Shown here: positions 25,535 through 56,057 of the stretch, piece by piece
Numbering within the stretch: position 1 is the first letter of the stretch
How the letters are laid out: each line of letters begins with the position of its first letter
Origin: Pseudomonas anuradhapurensis
GTDB taxonomy: Bacteria; Pseudomonadota; Gammaproteobacteria; Pseudomonadales; Pseudomonadaceae
Direction: 5' to 3'
DNA: 64,000 nt
Assembly: GCF_014269225.2 (NCBI RefSeq)
Contig: NZ_CP077097.1
Span: forward strand, 2,801,001-2,865,000
Translations under genes and position numbers: made by a program
The notes under the pieces: model-generated
What the model was told of the DNA's origin: nothing
Seen by the model: the letters and a program-made list of their open reading frames with translations, nothing else
The model's database searches: none

Positions 25535-26206
25535 TCACTCCCGGATCTTGAACTGTTGCAAGTGCTGATAATCCGCTTGCAGTTGTTCCGCCAGACGCTG
25601 CGCGCGCCCCAGGCGCACCGGCGCCATTTCCATATCCACCAGCAACGTGGTGCACGGCATCGGCTGTACACCATTGCAATGCTGCAGGCGGCCATCGGTA
25701 AACACCAGGCAACGCAACGCTTCCTGCGGGTGGGCGCGTTGCCGCGCCTGGAGCCAATGCCGGGCCTGTTCCAGTGCGGCAAGCAACGGCGTTCCGCCAC
25801 CGGCACCCAAGGCGTGCAGCCACGGCTGCAAGGCGGCCGAAGCCTTCAGGCCGTGACGTTGCCACTGCGGCGTGCGCCCGCTGGCAGTCAGCAGGGCCAG
25901 CCTGGCGCGCTGGCGGTACGCCTGGTCGAACAGTGTCGCCAGCAGCCCCTTGGTCTGCGCCAGTGCCTGGTGGCGCCGGGTCGAGGCCGAGGCATCGACG
26001 ATAACCAGCCACAACTCGGCTGGCCTGGCCTGGCGCAGCTGCCAGCACAGGTCCTGGCGCAGCCGTGGCCGGCCCTTGAGCAAGGTCGGCAGCCAGGCCA
26101 CCCGACCGCTGGCGGCATGCCGCGCACGGCCCGTGCGGGTACCGTGCTGCTTGCCTGCGCCTGCTTTGGCATCCGGCCCCTTGGCAGTTGGCTGGGGGAT
26201 GCTCAG
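25535..26206 (-). CDS. VWA domain of a ChlD-type chelatase subunit (likely made by -1 frameshift from the ChlI-like gene)
   Basis: This frame encodes the C-terminal half of a ChlD/BchD-like chelatase subunit. The MIDAS metal-binding motif DASAS lies in ELWLVIVDASASTRR, preceded by an Arg/Gly-rich linker typical of ChlD. The only ordinary start is GTG 26101, which would cut away linker sequence that resembles the family. No ATG, GTG or TTG lies between there and the end of the upstream gene; the frame can be entered by a -1 slip at the A AAA AAG site at 26209-26215, or at CTG 26206 overlapping the upstream stop. I give the span from CTG 26206; the fused product would cover 27225 down to 25535. 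It would work with CobN in cobalt insertion. Confidence 0.8.
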   Translation of the reverse strand: MSIPQPTAKGPDAKAGAGKQHGTRTGRARHAASGRVAWLPTLLKGRPRLRQDLCWQLRQARPAELWLVIVDASASTRRHQALAQTKGLLATLFDQAYRQRARLALLTASGRTPQWQRHGLKASAALQPWLHALGAGGGTPLLAALEQARHWLQARQRAHPQEALRCLVFTDGRLQHCNGVQPMPCTTLLVDMEMAPVRLGRAQRLAEQLQADYQHLQQFKIRE

Positions 26207-26232
26207 GGCTTTTTTGCCCAGTTCGGCACCTC
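26169..26232 (-). promoter_or_regulatory. Programmed -1 ribosomal frameshift signal
   Basis: Three standard elements occur in order on the minus strand. A Shine-Dalgarno-like GAGGTG (26232-26227) lies 11 bases before the slippery heptamer. The heptamer A AAA AAG (26215-26209) is in the proper phase (GCA AAA AAG) and is the one used by E. coli dnaX. Six bases later a hairpin begins: GCATCC (26202-26197) pairs with GGATGC (26174-26169), extended by CCC/GGG. The zero frame stops at TGA 26205, and a -1 slip enters the VWA frame exactly. Confidence 0.85.
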
Positions 26233-27225
26233 ACGGCGGGCGCCGCTGGCGACCGGCTGCGCCGGCAATGCCCCCCAGTCGCCCTGCCCGGCCTGTTCAC
26301 CCGGGTTACCGGCACCCTGCGGCACAGGCTGCTGCCCAGCTTGCGACGGCGTCGAAGGCGGGTTGGCCTGGGGAGTAACCCGGCGACGATGGCGCAGGGC
26401 GAACTCGGCCACCGCCTCGACATCGGCCTCTTCGATGGCTGCAGCACCGCGCCAGGCGCAGTGCGCGCGCGCAGCCCGCAACCAGACCAGGTCGGCACGC
26501 AGGCCATCGACCCCGGCGGCATAGCAGCGCTCGGTGATCCAGGCCAGCGCCTGGTCGTCCAGGGCGATATCGGCCAGGGCGTGGCGGGCGGCCTGGCAGC
26601 GTTCGCGCAATTGCGCCTGGGCCGGGGCCCATTGCGCACAGAAAGCCTGCGGGTCGCTGTCGAACGCCAGGCGGCGACGAATGATTTGTTGACGCGCTGC
26701 CGGCTCGGGCAAGCCTTCCAGGGCCACGTTCAGGCCGAAGCGGTCGAGCAGCTGCGGGCGCAGTTCGCCTTCCTCCGGGTTCATGGTGCCGATCAATACG
26801 AAGCGGGCACTGTGCCGGTGCGAAATGCCGTCACGCTCGACCCGGTTGGTACCGCTGGCCGCCACGTCGAGCAACAGGTCGACCAGGGTGTCGGGCAGCA
26901 GGTTGACCTCGTCGACGTACAGCACGCCGCCATCGGCCTGGGCCAGCACGCCCGGGGAAAACTGCGCCTTGCCCTGCCCGAGCGCAGCATCCAGGTCGAG
27001 AGTGCCGACCAGGCGTTCCTCGCTGGCCCCCAGCGGCAGGGTGACGAACGGCCCCTCCCCCAGCAGGTCGGCGAGGCCACGGGCCAGGGTGCTCTTGGCC
27101 ATGCCACGCGGCCCCTCGATCAGCACACCACCGATCTTCGGGTCGATAGCCGTCAGGCACAGCGCCAGCTTGAGGTCGTCGGCAGCGACCACGGCGGCCA
27201 GCGGAAATTGCACGGGTTCACTCAT
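26203..27225 (-). CDS. ChlI-like AAA+ chelatase subunit (magnesium/cobalt chelatase small subunit)
   Basis: A 340-residue AAA+ ATPase. Walker A GPRGMAKST is at residues 38-46, Walker B GGVLYVDEVNLL near residue 97-108, and sensor sequences GTMNPEEGELRPQLLDRFGL near 145-165, all typical of ChlI/BchI. The C-terminal 60 residues are a Pro/Gln/Gly-rich linker like that joining AAA+ and VWA parts in ChlD. Its end contains the slippery site, so ribosomes can either stop here, giving a small subunit, or shift to give the medium subunit. ATG 27225 follows the cobN stop by one base. The partner is CobN. Confidence 0.92.
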   Translation of the reverse strand: MSEPVQFPLAAVVAADDLKLALCLTAIDPKIGGVLIEGPRGMAKSTLARGLADLLGEGPFVTLPLGASEERLVGTLDLDAALGQGKAQFSPGVLAQADGGVLYVDEVNLLPDTLVDLLLDVAASGTNRVERDGISHRHSARFVLIGTMNPEEGELRPQLLDRFGLNVALEGLPEPAARQQIIRRRLAFDSDPQAFCAQWAPAQAQLRERCQAARHALADIALDDQALAWITERCYAAGVDGLRADLVWLRAARAHCAWRGAAAIEEADVEAVAEFALRHRRRVTPQANPPSTPSQAGQQPVPQGAGNPGEQAGQGDWGALPAQPVASGARREVPNWAKKP

Positions 27226-27226
27226 T

Positions 27227-30200
27227 TCAAGCCTGTTCCTCGCCGTCGAGCAGTTGCTCCTCGAGGGCTTCGCGGTAATCACCCGGCGCCTGCCACAGGC
27301 CGCGTTGCTGGGCCTCCAGCAGGCGCTCGGTAAGGTCGCGCAAGGCCTCGGGGTTGTGCTCGCGCATGAAGTTGCGGGTCGCCGGGTCGAGCACATAGGC
27401 ATCGGCCAGCGACTGGTAATGATGGTCGTCGATCAGGTGCGTGGTGGCATCGAAGGCAAACAGGTTGTCGACCGTCGCCGCCATCTCGAACGCGCCCTTG
27501 TAGCCATGGCGCTTGACCCCGTCGATCCACTTCGGGTTGAGTGCACGGGCGCGGATGACCCGGTTCAGCTCTTCCTTGAGGGTACGGATGCGCGGTCGGT
27601 CGGCCTGGCTGTGGTCGCCGTGGTAGCTGGCCACCGCCGCAGCGGACAAGGTTTCCGACGCCGCCAGCATGCCACCCTGGAACTGGTAATAGTCGTTGGA
27701 GTCGAGCAGGTCGTGCTCGTGGTTGTCCTGGTTCTGCAACACCGCCTGCACCCTGGCCAGGCGCTGGGCGAACTGGGCGCGGGCCGGTGTCCCGTCGTCG
27801 CTGCCGCCGTAGGCATAGCCGCCATGGTTGAGGTAGACCTCGGCCAGGTCGTCGCGGCTGTGCCACAGGCGCCCGTCGATGGCGTTCTGCACCCCTGCGC
27901 CATAGGCCCCGGGTTTGGCGCCGAACACCCGCCAACCAGCCTGGCGCGCAGCCTGCTCGGCATCCAGCCCTTGCGCCTGCAGCGTGGCACGCTCGCTGCG
28001 CACCCGGGCAGCCAGAGGGTTGAGATCGTCCGGCTCGTCCAGCGCAGCGACCGCCTGCACAGCGGCATCGAACAGGCGAATGAGGTTGCCGAAGGCATCG
28101 CGGAAAAACCCGGAAACGCGCAAGGTCACGTCCACCCGCGGGCGGTCGAGCAGGCTCAACGGCAGGATCTCGAAATCGTCGACACGCTGGCTGCCACTGG
28201 CCCAGACCGGGCGTACCCCCATCAGTGCCATGGCCTGGGCGATGTCGTCGCCACCTGTGCGCATGGTCGCCGTGCCCCATACCGACAGGCCGAGCTGGCG
28301 CAAGTGGTCGCCATGGTCCTGCAGGTGACGTTCGAGGATCAGGTTGGCCGAGGCGAAGCCCAGGCGCCAGGCCGTGGTGGTGGGCAGGTTGCGCACATCC
28401 ACGGTATAGAAGTTACGACCGGTGGGCAGCACATCCAGGCGCCCACGGCTGGGTGCACCACTGGGGCCGGCAGGCACGAAACGCCCTGCCAGCGCGGCCA
28501 GCAGGCCGCTGATTTCGGCGTTACCGCAGGCGTCCAGGCTGGGTGCCACCGTTTCACGCAGGGCCTGCACCACGTCATGGACCGGTTGCCATTCGCCCTC
28601 TGCCGGTAACTGTACGGTGCCATCCAGTGCCTGCTCGATTACCTGCAAGGCCAACAGTTCGAGACGTTCGCGGGTGTCGCCACAGGTACGCCAAGGTTCG
28701 TCGCTCAGGGCCAGCAGTTGCGCGGGTCGCACGCCCTGCCACGGCTGGCCGAGGTCACAATCGAGCGGGTCGAAACCCGGCACCAGCGCCTTGGCCAGCA
28801 CGCGCAGCAGGCTGGCATTGCCGCCGCGACCATCGCCCCGCTCGACCCGTAACAGCGCCAGCAGGGTATCCACGCGCAGCCGCCCTTGCGGCGACTGGCC
28901 GAACACATGCAGGCCATCGCGAATCTGCGATTCCTTCAGGTCGCACAGGTAGGTGTCCAGGCGCGGCAGCCACACGGCGGCATCATCCAGTTGCCCTTCC
29001 AATTGCAATTCGCGGTCGATGTGGTTGGCCTTGACCAGTTCGAGGATGTCGCGCTGCAGCTCGCGGGCACGCCTTGGGTCGAGCAGTTGCGCTTCATAGA
29101 ATTCATCCGCCAGTTGTTCCAGATGGCGCAACGGGCCGTAGGTTTCGGCGCGCGTCAGCGGCGGCATCAGGTGGTCGATGATCACCGCCTGGGTGCGCCG
29201 TTTGGCCTGGGCGCCCTCGCCCGGGTCATTGACGATGAACGGGTAGATGTTCGGCAGCGGGCCGAGCAACGCATCCGGCCAGCATTGCGCTGACAAGCCG
29301 ACGCCCTTGCCGGGCAACCATTCGAGGTTGCCGTGCTTGCCCACGTGGATCACCGCGTCGGCGGCAAAGGCATGGCGCAGCCAGAAGTGAAACGCCAGGT
29401 AGCCGTGGGGCGGCACCAGGTCGGGGTCGTGGTACACCGCGCTGGGGTCCACCTGGTAGCCGCGGGCCGGCTGGATACCGACGAAGGTCAGGCCGAAGCG
29501 CAGGCCGGCCACCATCAGCCGGCCACTGCGGTACATCGGGTCCTGCTGCGGCGGCCCCCAGCGTTCCAGCACGGCCTGGCGGTTGGCCTCTGGCAGGCGC
29601 TCGAAGGCAGCCTGGTAATCGGCCAGGCTCAGGCTTTGCGCGCAGGGGCGCAGGTCCAGCAGGTCAAGGTCATTGGTCACACCACCCAGCAGTTGCTGAA
29701 TCAGTTGCGTGCCGCTGCCCGGCAAATCGGCCAACGGGTAACCTTCGGCCCGCAGCGCCTTGAGGATGTTCAACGCAGCCGCTGGCGTGTCCAGGCCGAC
29801 ACCGTTGCCGATGCGGCCATCCCGGGTCGGGTAGTTGGCCAACACCAGGGCCACCCGCTTCTGGGCATTGGGCAAACGCGCCAGCTCGACCCAGCGGCGG
29901 GCCAGCTCGGCGACGAAATCCATGCGTTCGGGGTGGGCACGGTAGCAGACCACGTCGGACTGGCTGCGCTCGCTGCGCCAGGCCATGTCCTTGAAGCTGA
30001 CCGGGCGGGTGATGATGCGCCCGTCCAGTTCCGGCAAGGCAATGTGCATGGCCAGGTCGCGCGCGCCCAGGCCTTGCTCGCTGGCTTCCCAACCGGGCTG
30101 GTTGTCCTGCGCGCAAATGGCCTGGAGCACCGGGATGTCGCGACGGAACGGGCGCAGGTTGGGCCGTTCGGGGCTGGACAGGGCAAAGCCTGTGGTATTG

Positions 30201-30988
30201 ACCAGCACCTCGGCGCCAACCTCGTCCAGCCAGGCTTCGACCTGTTCCAGGCATGCGCTTTCCTTGAGGCTGGCCACGGCGATCGGCAAGGGGTTGAGGC
30301 CGGCAGCCTGCAGCCGTTGGCAGAACACGTCGATGAACGCGGTGTTGGCCGCCTGCAGGTGCGAGCGGTAGAACAGCAGCGGTGCCACCGGCTGTTCGGG
30401 GTGCCACTGCGGGTACCAGTCCTCCAGCGTGGCGCTGCCCTTGGCCGGGTGATACACGGCGGTGCGCGGCAAAGGCTGCGGCTCGTCCCAGGCATAGTCG
30501 CGGCCCAGCCACTGGCTGGCCAGGCAGTTGAACAGGTTGATGGCATTGGCCTTGCCGCCCTGGCGCAAGTAGTGCCAGAGGCGCTCGGCCTGCTCGCCGC
30601 TGACACTGCCCAGGCTGGTCAGCTCCGGGTCCGGGCGGTCGTCGCCCGGCACCAGGATCAGTTGCACGCCACGGCCGGCCAGTTCGACCAGTTGCTCGAC
30701 GCCATAGCGCCAGTAACCGACGCCACCGTGCAGCGACACCAGGATGACCTTCGCATGGCGCAGTACCTGGTCGACGTACAGGTCGACCGAGGCATGGTTC
30801 TGTACCTGCATCGGGTTGGCCAGGCGCAGGCTGGGGTAATCCTCGGGCAATTGCTCGGCGGTATCGGCGAGCAATGCCAGGTGCGAATCGCCGCTGCAGA
30901 GAATCACCAGCTCGGCGGGCGTCTGGCCGAGGTCGGCAATGCTGTCATCCGGCACGAAGCCGCCGGGCTGGGTCCGCAGCAGGTGCAT
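27227..30988 (-). CDS. cobN: Cobaltochelatase large subunit CobN
   Basis: A 1253-residue protein that binds hydrogenobyrinic acid a,c-diamide and inserts cobalt, in the aerobic route to vitamin B12. Length and blocks such as NYPTRDGRIGNGVGLDTPAA, HVGKHGNLEWLPGKGVGLS and TMRTGGDDIAQAMALMGVRP are those of the CobN/ChlH family. It needs ATPase subunits; no cobS/cobT pair is near, but the ChlI/ChlD-like gene follows directly. It lies 3 bases after cobW and 1 base before the ATPase gene, so all are one operon controlled by the upstream B12 riboswitch. Confidence 0.97.
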   Translation of the reverse strand: MHLLRTQPGGFVPDDSIADLGQTPAELVILCSGDSHLALLADTAEQLPEDYPSLRLANPMQVQNHASVDLYVDQVLRHAKVILVSLHGGVGYWRYGVEQLVELAGRGVQLILVPGDDRPDPELTSLGSVSGEQAERLWHYLRQGGKANAINLFNCLASQWLGRDYAWDEPQPLPRTAVYHPAKGSATLEDWYPQWHPEQPVAPLLFYRSHLQAANTAFIDVFCQRLQAAGLNPLPIAVASLKESACLEQVEAWLDEVGAEVLVNTTGFALSSPERPNLRPFRRDIPVLQAICAQDNQPGWEASEQGLGARDLAMHIALPELDGRIITRPVSFKDMAWRSERSQSDVVCYRAHPERMDFVAELARRWVELARLPNAQKRVALVLANYPTRDGRIGNGVGLDTPAAALNILKALRAEGYPLADLPGSGTQLIQQLLGGVTNDLDLLDLRPCAQSLSLADYQAAFERLPEANRQAVLERWGPPQQDPMYRSGRLMVAGLRFGLTFVGIQPARGYQVDPSAVYHDPDLVPPHGYLAFHFWLRHAFAADAVIHVGKHGNLEWLPGKGVGLSAQCWPDALLGPLPNIYPFIVNDPGEGAQAKRRTQAVIIDHLMPPLTRAETYGPLRHLEQLADEFYEAQLLDPRRARELQRDILELVKANHIDRELQLEGQLDDAAVWLPRLDTYLCDLKESQIRDGLHVFGQSPQGRLRVDTLLALLRVERGDGRGGNASLLRVLAKALVPGFDPLDCDLGQPWQGVRPAQLLALSDEPWRTCGDTRERLELLALQVIEQALDGTVQLPAEGEWQPVHDVVQALRETVAPSLDACGNAEISGLLAALAGRFVPAGPSGAPSRGRLDVLPTGRNFYTVDVRNLPTTTAWRLGFASANLILERHLQDHGDHLRQLGLSVWGTATMRTGGDDIAQAMALMGVRPVWASGSQRVDDFEILPLSLLDRPRVDVTLRVSGFFRDAFGNLIRLFDAAVQAVAALDEPDDLNPLAARVRSERATLQAQGLDAEQAARQAGWRVFGAKPGAYGAGVQNAIDGRLWHSRDDLAEVYLNHGGYAYGGSDDGTPARAQFAQRLARVQAVLQNQDNHEHDLLDSNDYYQFQGGMLAASETLSAAAVASYHGDHSQADRPRIRTLKEELNRVIRARALNPKWIDGVKRHGYKGAFEMAATVDNLFAFDATTHLIDDHHYQSLADAYVLDPATRNFMREHNPEALRDLTERLLEAQQRGLWQAPGDYREALEEQLLDGEEQA

Positions 30989-30991
30989 GGG

Positions 30992-32059
30992 TCAGGCGCC
31001 TAGTGCCTGGCGCAGGCGCGCTTCCAGCTGGGCGGCGTCGAGGTCCTGGCCAATCAGCACCAGGCGGGTGATGCGCGGCTCGTCGGCGCGCCAGGCGCGG
31101 TCGAAGTGCTTGTCGAAACGGGTACCCACGCCTTGCACCAGCAGGCGCATCGGTTTGCCGGGGATTGCAGCGAAGCCTTTGGCGCGCAGGATGCCGAACT
31201 CCACCACCAGCTGGGTCAGGGCATCGAGCAGCAGGCTTTCGTCGGCTTCGGGCAGGTCGATGGAGATGGAGTCGAAGGCGTCGTGGTCATGATCGTCATG
31301 GTCATCACCGTCATGGTGGGAATCATGGTGGGTACGGCGGCCATCGATGTGCGCCTCGGACTCGGCGCCCACACCCAGCAGCACCTCCAGCGGCAGCTTG
31401 CCGCTGCTGGCCTCGACAACCTTGACCGCCGGAGGCAGTTCTTCGGCCACCTCGGTGCGGACCTTGGCCAGGCCTTCGGCGTCGATCAGGTCGGCCTTGT
31501 TCAGCACCACCAGGTCGGCGCTGGCCAACTGGTCGGCGAACAGTTCGTGCAGTGGCGACTCGTGGTCCAGGTTGGGGTCGAGCTTGCGCTGGGCATCGAC
31601 CTGGTCCGGGTAGGCGGCGAAGGTGCCGGCGGCCACCGCAGGGCTGTCGACCACAGTGATCACCGCGTCGACTGTGCAAGCATTGCGGATTTCCGGCCAC
31701 TGGAAGGCTTGCACCAGCGGTTTGGGCAGCGCCAGGCCGCTGGTTTCGATGAGGATATGGTCCAAGTCGCCACGGCGTGCCACCAACTCGCGCATCACCG
31801 GGAAGAACTCTTCCTGCACGGTGCAGCACAGGCAGCCGTTGGCCAGTTCGTAGACCCGACCGCTGGCTTCTTCCTCGGTGCAACCGATGCTGCACTGCTT
31901 GAGGATTTCACCGTCGATGCCCAGTTCGCCGAACTCGTTGACGATTACCGCGATGCGGCGGCCCTGGGCGTTGTCGAGCATGTGCCGCAGCAAGGTGGTC
32001 TTGCCCGAGCCGAGGAAGCCGGTGACGATGGTGACGGGGAGCTTGGCCAGTGTTTTCAT
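30992..32059 (-). CDS. cobW: CobW, COG0523-family GTPase metal chaperone
   Basis: A 355-residue G3E GTPase believed to deliver cobalt for cobalamin synthesis. The P-loop GFLGSGKTT is at residues 14-22, the metal-binding CxCC motif (NGCLCCTVQ) near residue 75, and a histidine/aspartate-rich stretch at about residues 244-270, probably extra metal ligands. ATG 32059 (MKTLAKLP) is chosen because the G-domain starts at once; the frame continues upstream without ribosome-binding support. It is the first gene after the cobalamin riboswitch and precedes cobN by 3 bases. Confidence 0.96.
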   Translation of the reverse strand: MKTLAKLPVTIVTGFLGSGKTTLLRHMLDNAQGRRIAVIVNEFGELGIDGEILKQCSIGCTEEEASGRVYELANGCLCCTVQEEFFPVMRELVARRGDLDHILIETSGLALPKPLVQAFQWPEIRNACTVDAVITVVDSPAVAAGTFAAYPDQVDAQRKLDPNLDHESPLHELFADQLASADLVVLNKADLIDAEGLAKVRTEVAEELPPAVKVVEASSGKLPLEVLLGVGAESEAHIDGRRTHHDSHHDGDDHDDHDHDAFDSISIDLPEADESLLLDALTQLVVEFGILRAKGFAAIPGKPMRLLVQGVGTRFDKHFDRAWRADEPRITRLVLIGQDLDAAQLEARLRQALGA

Positions 32060-32169
32060 GTCGCATTGCCCTTGGCAGATTGGCGCGGGCATGCAGGACG
32101 ACAGCCGCAGGCCAGGCCGGCCGGGCTTGTTCGCCACCGGATCACCCCGCCCGGTTGAAAGTCGAAAAC

Positions 32170-32362
32170 GTGCCGAGGCAGGTCTCCTGGCTCGCACCGT
32201 TCCAGTTGCTCGCCAATGCGGCAGGCTGGCGGGATGACGCCTTCCCGCGCGCGGGCGCAGTGGCTGTGTCGATCCGTTGTCGGTGCTTACAGTTGCGGGG
32301 GCAGCCGCGGCTTGTACCGCGTTCCCGTCTTAGCTTCGGCCTGGCCGAAGAACCTCGAAGTG
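32170..32362 (-). promoter_or_regulatory. Cobalamin (AdoCbl) riboswitch upstream of cobW
   Basis: On the minus strand the region contains the conserved parts in order: CGGGAACGCGGTACAAGCCG, CCCCCGCAACTGTAAGC, the core GCCACTG, GCGCGGGAAGGCGTCAT and, at the 3' end, AGCCAGGAGACCTGCC (the B12 box). The fold ends about 110 bases before the cobW ATG. It should shut off cobW-cobN-chlID when B12 is plentiful. Boundaries are approximate. Confidence 0.92.
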
Positions 32363-32544
32363 GCAAGGCTACGCAGTGGTTGGCGGGTGGTCAACCATTG
32401 CCGCTGGGGCTTGCCTCGATATGTTCAGCGCCTGGGAGTTTCGTGACTGGCCGTTCCCGATCTGCCGCGGATGTATTATGGTGGCGTGGTGCGCATATAA
32501 CAGCAGCCCGAGTGATTGGGCACTTGCAAGACAATGAGGGTGTC

Positions 32545-55186: not shown

Positions 55187-55541
55187 GCACAACAACAAAA
55201 AAAACGTGACACCCAATAAAAACAACAGGTAACGGCTCTGACATAACAAGAACAACACGGCAGAGGCGTAGCAAGCAGATTTTTTTGGAGTCGACACGCT
55301 TTTCAGGGGTACGCCCCGCGGTCTGGCACAGAACAATAAAACTACCTCAAGGTAGCGGCAGCCAGGTTCGGATCAGCCATGATGAAAGCAGGTCAGCGCT
55401 CAAAAAAATACGTTTGCTCTTGACCCCGAATGGGGGTCACCCGCAACACCCGGACAGGCTGACAAAAACAACAACAGGCCGGTCCCAATAATAAAAATAG
55501 AGCAGGCAACAACGCTTTGAGGGGAGCTTCGGCTCCCCTCA
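55187..55541 (+). ncRNA. crcY: CrcY small RNA (Hfq/Crc decoy)
   Basis: The gap between mvaB and mgtC is the crcY locus of P. putida. The predicted RNA of about 355 nt is A-rich and carries at least four exact AAYAAYAA motifs: 55191-55198, 55332-55339, 55467-55474 and 55487-55494, plus near matches around 55219, 55249 and 55509. CrcY and CrcZ bind Hfq with Crc and relieve catabolite repression when CbrA/CbrB is active. A perfect hairpin with a TTCG loop closes the 3' end. No protein-coding frame is supported here. Confidence 0.88.
55518..55541. terminator. Hairpin at the end of crcY, shared with mgtC
   Basis: TGAGGGGAGC-TTCG-GCTCCCCTCA is a perfect 10-base stem. Its right arm includes the stop codon of the convergent mgtC gene (55539-55541). 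No T run follows on either strand, so termination strength is uncertain. Confidence 0.65.
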
Positions 55542-56057
55542 GTGCTTCCTGCCCTCTTCCTCTTCCTGTTTTTTCTCATCCTGCCCTTCAAGCTTCTCTA
55601 CCAGCAACGGCATCGTGCCCAGCACCAGCAGGGCCAGCACCGTGCTGATCAGCGCCGTGGCTTCGCGGCCCATGCCGGCGGCCGTGCCGATGGCGGCAGT
55701 CATCCATAACCCGGCGGCCGTCGTCAGTCCTTTGACATGGCTGGGGTCCTGGCCGTTACCTTTCAAGATGGTACCTGCACCGAGAAAGCCGATACCGGCG
55801 ACGATACCCTGGATCACCCTGCTCAAGGCATCTTCCTCGGCACCGGCCATGCTCGGCGCCAGCACGAACAGTGCCGCTCCCAGCGACACCAGCATATGCG
55901 TGCGCACGCCAGCCGACTTGCCCTTGTGTTCACGCTCGAAGCCCAGCACCGCACCGAGCAAGGCGGCCATCAGCAGGCGCACGAGTATCTGCGTGACTTC
56001 CCGGGCGTCGGTGATATCGGCGAATTCGGCCTGGATTGCTTGCCAGATGAGGTCCAT
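55539..56057 (-). CDS. mgtC: MgtC/SapB-family membrane protein
   Basis: A 172-residue inner-membrane protein with four or more spans. The family signature LLMAALLGAVLGFEREHKGKSAGVRTHMLV is near residues 28-57 and GFLGAGTILKGNG near 93. MgtC proteins affect growth in low Mg2+ and inhibit F-type ATP synthase in other bacteria. The C terminus is a charged tail (KKQEEEEGRKH). ATG 56057 has GGGAA upstream; ATG 56072 would add five residues. The stop lies in the crcY hairpin. Confidence 0.87.
   Translation of the reverse strand: MDLIWQAIQAEFADITDAREVTQILVRLLMAALLGAVLGFEREHKGKSAGVRTHMLVSLGAALFVLAPSMAGAEEDALSRVIQGIVAGIGFLGAGTILKGNGQDPSHVKGLTTAAGLWMTAAIGTAAGMGREATALISTVLALLVLGTMPLLVEKLEGQDEKKQEEEEGRKH

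Follow-up and report, generated by a model that had tools for sequence, protein, structure and literature searches.

In the 64,000-nucleotide stretch of Pseudomonas anuradhapurensis DNA analysed here (the window), the genes of an aerobic cobalt chelatase lie together on the minus strand (Table 1). The cobN stop is followed, after a single base, by the ATG of a chlD gene at 27225, and this gene consists of two open reading frames: an AAA+ part and, in a different frame, a VWA part. The cobalamin riboswitch stands 5′ of cobW, so the operon is probably under B12 control. Elsewhere in the window there is a CrcZ small RNA gene (55189-55573, plus strand; RF01675, 329 bits).

The two halves of chlD resemble magnesium chelatase subunits. 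By sequence, the closest solved structures to the AAA+ half are those of ChlI and of the 38-kDa magnesium chelatase subunit; the VWA half matches Pfam VWA_2 and the solved 60-kDa magnesium chelatase subunit, which we take to be BchD. Read as one protein of 563 aa, the gene finds its best NCBIfam match in TIGR02442 (putative cobaltochelatase, fused form) with 470 bits, below the curated cut-off of 779, and the 340-aa AAA+ product scores 326 bits with TIGR02030 BchI-ChlI (magnesium chelatase subunit I), for which the cut-off is 467. When the whole genome was compared with the ChlI model (cut-off 467), the chlD locus was the sole strong match, with 277 bits for its main stretch; two more places gave 26 and 25 bits.

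The large subunit belongs to the cobalt enzyme: the CobN protein passes the TIGR02257 cut-off and stays below that of the BchH model (700 bits versus 829), and it is the only protein that a PF02514 search of the genome returned. At an E threshold of 0.001 the genome search gave nothing for CobS or CobT (TIGR01650, TIGR01651), and a Caulobacter control was positive for both. The genome search thus gave the combination that marks the frameshifted chlD (fs-chlD) genes, CobN present with CobS and CobT absent, and in a genome without detected CobS/CobT one gene could be the source of the small as well as the medium motor subunit of this aerobic enzyme. A CobB-type protein of the same genome scores 260.3 bits, slightly below its cut-off of 261.4.

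Table 1. Features of the chlD-cobN-cobW region, in window positions
Feature	Position	Strand	Remarks
VWA part in the -1 frame, entered via the heptamer; MIDAS-like DASAS	25535..26215	-	with the AAA+ part, would form a 563-aa medium subunit
Stem-loop, arms GCATCC and GGATGC, beginning 6 bases after the heptamer	26169..26202	-	best anchored placement pairs 7/7 in 112 and 6/7 in 22 of 134 loci
0-frame stop TGA, second codon past the heptamer	26203..26205	-	stop at this place in 131/134 loci
0-frame AAA+ ORF, ChlI-like putative small subunit, 340 aa	26203..27225	-	Walker A GPRGMAKST, Walker B LYVDEVN
Slippery heptamer A AAA AAG	26209..26215	-	in phase in 152/152 -1-related loci
SD-like GAGGTG, 11 bases 5′ of the heptamer	26227..26232	-	GAGGT in 68/134 loci
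cobN, aerobic cobaltochelatase large subunit	27227..30988	-	TIGR02257, 1728 bits (cut-off 822)
cobW, ORF as listed; true start probably further in	30992..32197	-	TIGR02475, 530 bits (cut-off 332)
Cobalamin riboswitch, 5′ of cobW	32160..32372	-	RF00174, 102 bits (gathering score 31.5)

The AAA+ ORF ends in GCA AAA AAG CCC TGA, and the AAAAAAG within it stands in the phase A AAA AAG. The original prediction, made from the letters of this DNA, had proposed that ribosomes slip at this heptamer and that a -1 slip leads exactly into the VWA frame. The sequence confirms the heptamer, its phase and the frame relation, with predicted products of 340 and 563 aa, and the order of the two ORFs, AAA+ first and VWA after it in the -1 frame, is the arrangement known from fs-chlD genes. 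Reading in the -1 frame from 26230 meets no stop before a TGA at 25537-25535, and another TGA lies just ahead of the open stretch at 26233-26231. As a bare string, AAAAAAG occurs in the window about as often as expected (2 observed, 1.77 expected); what gives the heptamer its significance is its phase, its position and its conservation. The observation as a whole is far beyond chance.

Conservation of the shift site in the genus and beyond

A search of the genus covered 398 genomes, of which 374 have a match with E below 1e-80, 21 have only a weaker match and 3 have none (counted by hand). Among the 24 without a strong chlD match, some are incomplete assemblies, and loss of aerobic B12 synthesis may account for others. 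DNA was inspected for 160 genomes of the genus, a sample that is not random: it consists of the P. anuradhapurensis genome itself, 109 of the best-scoring genomes listed (the order of scores was not followed strictly), 30 loci obtained from 40 hand-picked and mostly low-scoring genomes, and 20 later ones, three of which are among the most divergent. Both halves of the gene are visible in 157 of the 160 (L074, L141 and L142 lack the VWA half in the fetched DNA). The statistics on conservation, stem, SD-like element and start codons use 134 loci, which exclude the 20 later ones and the loci that are not in a simple -1 relation (L004, L020, L032, L245 and L258, five of the 157).

Comparison with these other Pseudomonas loci strongly supports the prediction. 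The halves stand in a -1 relation in 152 of the 157 loci, and all 152 (the 134 and 18 later ones) carry A AAA AAG in phase, among them three later loci with only about 60% AAA+ identity; the conserved in-phase A-rich heptamer at the junction is another mark of fs-chlD genes. On a tree of the AAA+ domain from the 134 loci, the seven heptamer bases show 0 Fitch changes. Third codon positions of the domain average 26.5, and only 2% of their 298 columns are free of change. The codon that holds the heptamer's first A is GCA in 65 loci, CCA in 63, ACA in 3, TCA in 2 and GAA in 1; its residue varies (Ala, Pro, Thr, Ser, Glu) yet its final A is present in 134/134, and background usage is 0.075 for GCA among Ala codons, 0.110 for CCA among Pro codons and 0.23 for AAA among Lys codons. 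An A kept at the end of a codon whose residue changes is a product of selection on nucleotides rather than on protein. Two of the divergent later loci (L242 and L243) have CTA at this codon, as judged by eye.

Over the 134 loci, not one stop interrupts the 4500 codons of the -1 linker; stops number 171 in 4366 codons of the 0 frame (its own terminators included) and 66 in 4366 of the third frame. The run of A at the heptamer is six long in 133 of the 134 loci, and motifs are intact on both sides of the junction (Walker A and B in 134/134, DxSxS in 134/134). In L088 and L096 the 0-frame stop, usually two codons past the heptamer, follows it directly (AAG TAA). A P. koreensis locus (L195) likewise reads AAG TAA, and in L091 a CAG replaces the 0-frame TAG, so that the short product gains the tail QASALD before the next stop.

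The five loci outside the simple -1 relation look broken or misread, through sequencing error or real decay. In L004 an upstream shift brings the AAA+ frame to a TGA ahead of an intact heptamer; in L032 the heptamer is present and the shift lies elsewhere; in L245 it is present and the AAA+ half is broken. The two without A AAA AAG are L020, which has C AAA AAG, a VWA part that begins in the AAA+ frame after a TAG and a further frame change within that part, and L258, in which the heptamer is disrupted (an A run of five, with two extra bases before it), the VWA part is in a +1 relation and the downstream stem is intact. L020 also has, between cobN and chlD, a spacer in which a short repeat occurs in inverted copies. 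These five are the loci that lend some colour to the idea that the split in the window is itself a sequencing error or a pseudogene decaying by frameshift. The same site and frame relation recur in 152 genomes, with motifs intact on both sides in 134; conservation refutes the idea for the window, and its probability is negligible.

Outside the genus sample, 80 loci were taken from named records, with some overlap between the two sets (for example, L156 and L012). Sixty-seven of them are Pseudomonas or Pseudomonas-like, including records titled Paucimonas and Pantoea and one Pseudomonadaceae MAG, and the heptamer is present in 63/63 of the Pseudomonas-like loci that show both halves; L194, L217, L221 and L222, also Pseudomonas-like, have no VWA match, and L222 has the heptamer. 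In Burkholderiaceae the same junction reads A AAA AAA in 5/5 loci (L227, L228, L229, L231, L233; by eye). L227 and L229 have inverted CCATCGA and TCGATGG-like arms after it. Both halves lie in one frame in two gammaproteobacterial loci (L220, L224) and four actinobacterial ones (L226, L230, L234, L235), the six being from Marinomonas, a gammaproteobacterial MAG, one Mycobacterium, Streptomyces and two Nocardia; two further Mycobacterium loci (L225, L232) had no match to the VWA bait. In a class-level search of 185 genomes, 12 reached E 1e-40 or better, our own included. Here L144 and L146 have an in-phase A AAA AAG with VWA in the -1 frame, and in L145, L147, L148 and L149 the VWA match shares its frame with AAA+. 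L143 is matched over residues 6-446 without a stop, though the short VWA bait matched in the +1 frame, and the DNA fetched for L150-L153 showed no VWA match.

These comparisons bear on a second reading, in which the halves are two separate genes and the VWA protein arises by internal initiation or re-initiation, for example at GTG 26101. The VWA frame had been said to lack an ATG, GTG or TTG until well inside the domain. The first such codon past the heptamer is indeed GTG 26101, residue 38 of the 225-residue downstream reading, but it does not lie inside the domain: the VWA_2 match begins at residue 69, about 31 residues further on, so a protein begun there, of 188 aa, would keep the entire match. 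Some possible start between the heptamer and ten residues before DxSxS exists in 123 of the 134 loci, and in 26 of the 134 such a start has a 4-base SD-like match upstream. Starts of this kind share no position, however: the commonest first ones are GTG at +36 and TTG at +42 codons, with 21/134 each, and 11/134 loci have none before the domain. GTG 26101 itself has no SD-like sequence upstream, the linker ahead of it is open in the -1 frame in 134/134, and internal initiation leaves the invariant heptamer unexplained. The in-frame single-gene relatives also argue against separate genes. With no start common to the 134 loci, internal initiation was rejected as a general mechanism, and we consider it very unlikely that the VWA protein is made in this way.

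The downstream stem and the SD-like element

A hairpin with 6-base arms, predicted to start 6 bases past the heptamer, is present in the window (GCATCC at 26202-26197, GGATGC at 26174-26169). Compared with dinucleotide shuffles its z is +1.96, and 194/200 shuffles fold at least as well; compared with synonymous recoding the stem scores 16 versus 11.4, with an MFE z of -0.52. The stability of the window copy alone, no better than that of shuffles, was set aside as uninformative.

Across the genus, three results bear on the stem. First, the position of the stem is nearly constant, the best one beginning +5 or +6 after the heptamer in 130 of the 134 loci. Second, its score exceeds expectation, with a mean of 26.0 versus 14.2 in synonymous controls; individually, p is below 0.05 in 85/134 loci and below 0.01 in 41/134, and the folding energy z versus synonymous recoding has a mean of -1.67 and falls below -2 in only 48/134. 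Third, the anchored stem at its best placement has 7/7 pairs in 112 loci and 6/7 in 22, versus 7 pairs in 8.5% and 6 or more in 47.6% of synonymous controls, the 3′ arm being the best of many placements in loci and controls alike. Compensatory states occur at stem pairs 3, 4 and 5 (pair 7 is unpaired in 20/134 loci and pair 8 in 13/134), and covariation is modest: 0.967 of cells are paired, versus 0.940 when the 3′ arms are redealt (maximum 0.947 of 500). By eye, 15 of the 18 later -1 loci have GCATCC or GCATTC at the same position. The most divergent copies, L241-L243 (about 60% AAA+ identity), keep the heptamer and have other GC-rich sequence in place of the GCATCC arms. Downstream RNA structure, a further mark of fs-chlD genes, is therefore widespread in Pseudomonas, but weak and by itself not significant in the window and of a different kind in three divergent genomes.

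The SD-like GAGGTG that the prediction placed 11 bases upstream of the heptamer is also there, but as a general part of the signal it did not hold up. GAGGT occurs upstream in 68/134 loci (background, 0.17 of sequence windows), and in 66/134 the 20 bases before the heptamer contain no SD-like match as long as 4 bases; loci without GAGGT have GAAGTG, GAACCG or GTACCG at that position. The element, clade-limited and missing in these 66 loci, was rejected as a general stimulator. Because GAGGT is found in only 68 of the loci, the commoner feature is the stem, which is taken as the probable general stimulator, with the SD-like element as an apparent extra in one clade.

The stem also bears on whether slippage occurs on the ribosome or in transcription. 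Since the site is an A homopolymer, RNA polymerase could in principle slip on the A run and so give the long product, and both mechanisms are treated for such sites in Antonov 2013 (PMC3711429). According to that paper, sites of transcriptional slippage often appear to be homopolymers of at least eight, so the run of only six found here in nearly every locus counts against this mechanism. A codon phase that does not vary, an invariant final G and a stem at constant distance speak for the ribosome, and a transcriptional origin is extremely unlikely. In the same paper, three cassettes from the magnesium chelatase cluster, with A runs of 11, 9 and 7, gave 63, 40 and 10% in E. coli; efficiency rose with the run, the 7-A cassette giving the 10%, and with regard to this trend the run of six is a point against efficient frameshifting here.

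Two probable subunits from one gene and the known systems

The reading that best accounts for these observations, and that is very probably correct, is a programmed -1 ribosomal frameshift in a ChlI/ChlD-type gene serving CobN. Ribosomes that do not slip would read to the TGA two codons past the heptamer and release the 340-aa AAA+ small subunit. In a fraction of ribosomes, both tRNAs on A AAA AAG would move back one base, and translation would continue in the VWA frame to the 563-aa AAA+-VWA medium subunit. The two proteins would carry the same, apparently intact ATPase module and would form a CobN motor complex for the insertion of cobalt in aerobic B12 synthesis. The frame relation, the in-phase heptamer, the open linker, the stem, the absence of detectable CobS/CobT and the riboswitch-cobW-cobN context can be read directly from the sequences; that slippage occurs in P. 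anuradhapurensis, that both proteins are made and that the complex forms is what we infer from them. The original claim that one gene yields a small and a medium subunit for CobN is in this sense supported comparatively.

One extension concerns the stem. Lying after the 0-frame stop, it might also be a sensor, its stability shifted by cobalt, another divalent cation or a corrin intermediate; a divalent-cation role has been suggested for the P. protegens-type stem (Atkins 2016, PMC5009743). Such a stem would tune the ratio of small to medium subunit and add a second layer of control below the cobalamin riboswitch. This extension is decidedly unlikely.

The find is real but already published, Pseudomonas included, so the prediction is a correct rediscovery. 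It had rightly noted that the principle was known for chlD genes, and the published work extends to Pseudomonas itself. Antonov 2013 describes a magnesium chelatase frameshift cluster of 23 genes from six genera, Pseudomonas among them, and reports that in RefSeq each gene of this kind had been entered as a pair of neighbouring genes (PMC3711429), which makes the medium subunit easy to miss. Atkins 2016 describes A_AAA_AAR in Pseudomonas as under purifying selection and gives a stem for P. protegens (PMC5009743). Kuznetsov 2022 treats the small and medium CobNST subunits (PMC9227772), and Antonov 2020 is cited for mosaic cobaltochelatases (PMC8651126). What the present analysis adds is quantitative: the heptamer is invariant among the 152 -1 loci, the stem spacing is mostly fixed and the SD-like element is dispensable.

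The closest comparison is with the fs-chlD genes as a group. In them too, a -1 shift at an A-rich site connects an AAA+ ORF with a VWA ORF, and there is downstream structure (PMC3711429, PMC9227772), and small and medium subunits for CobN have been proposed for them (PMC9227772). There is no essential difference: P. anuradhapurensis is one more instance, in which the SD-like element is a clade feature. The P. protegens shift site is of the same A_AAA_AAR form, and the GGCATCC/GGATGCC arms printed for it (PMC5009743) are also those of L080 and L083. Relative to P. protegens, the window is among the loci with TGA and GCATCCCCC, in which the inner stem is weaker. The same paper does not regard the sequence as strongly conserved, whereas our 134 loci show good preservation of the outer arms. 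Outside the chelatases, E. coli dnaX shares A AAA AAG, an upstream SD-like sequence and a downstream hairpin; the dnaX shift leads to a shorter product (PMC3711429), whereas the shift at chlD would lead to a longer one.
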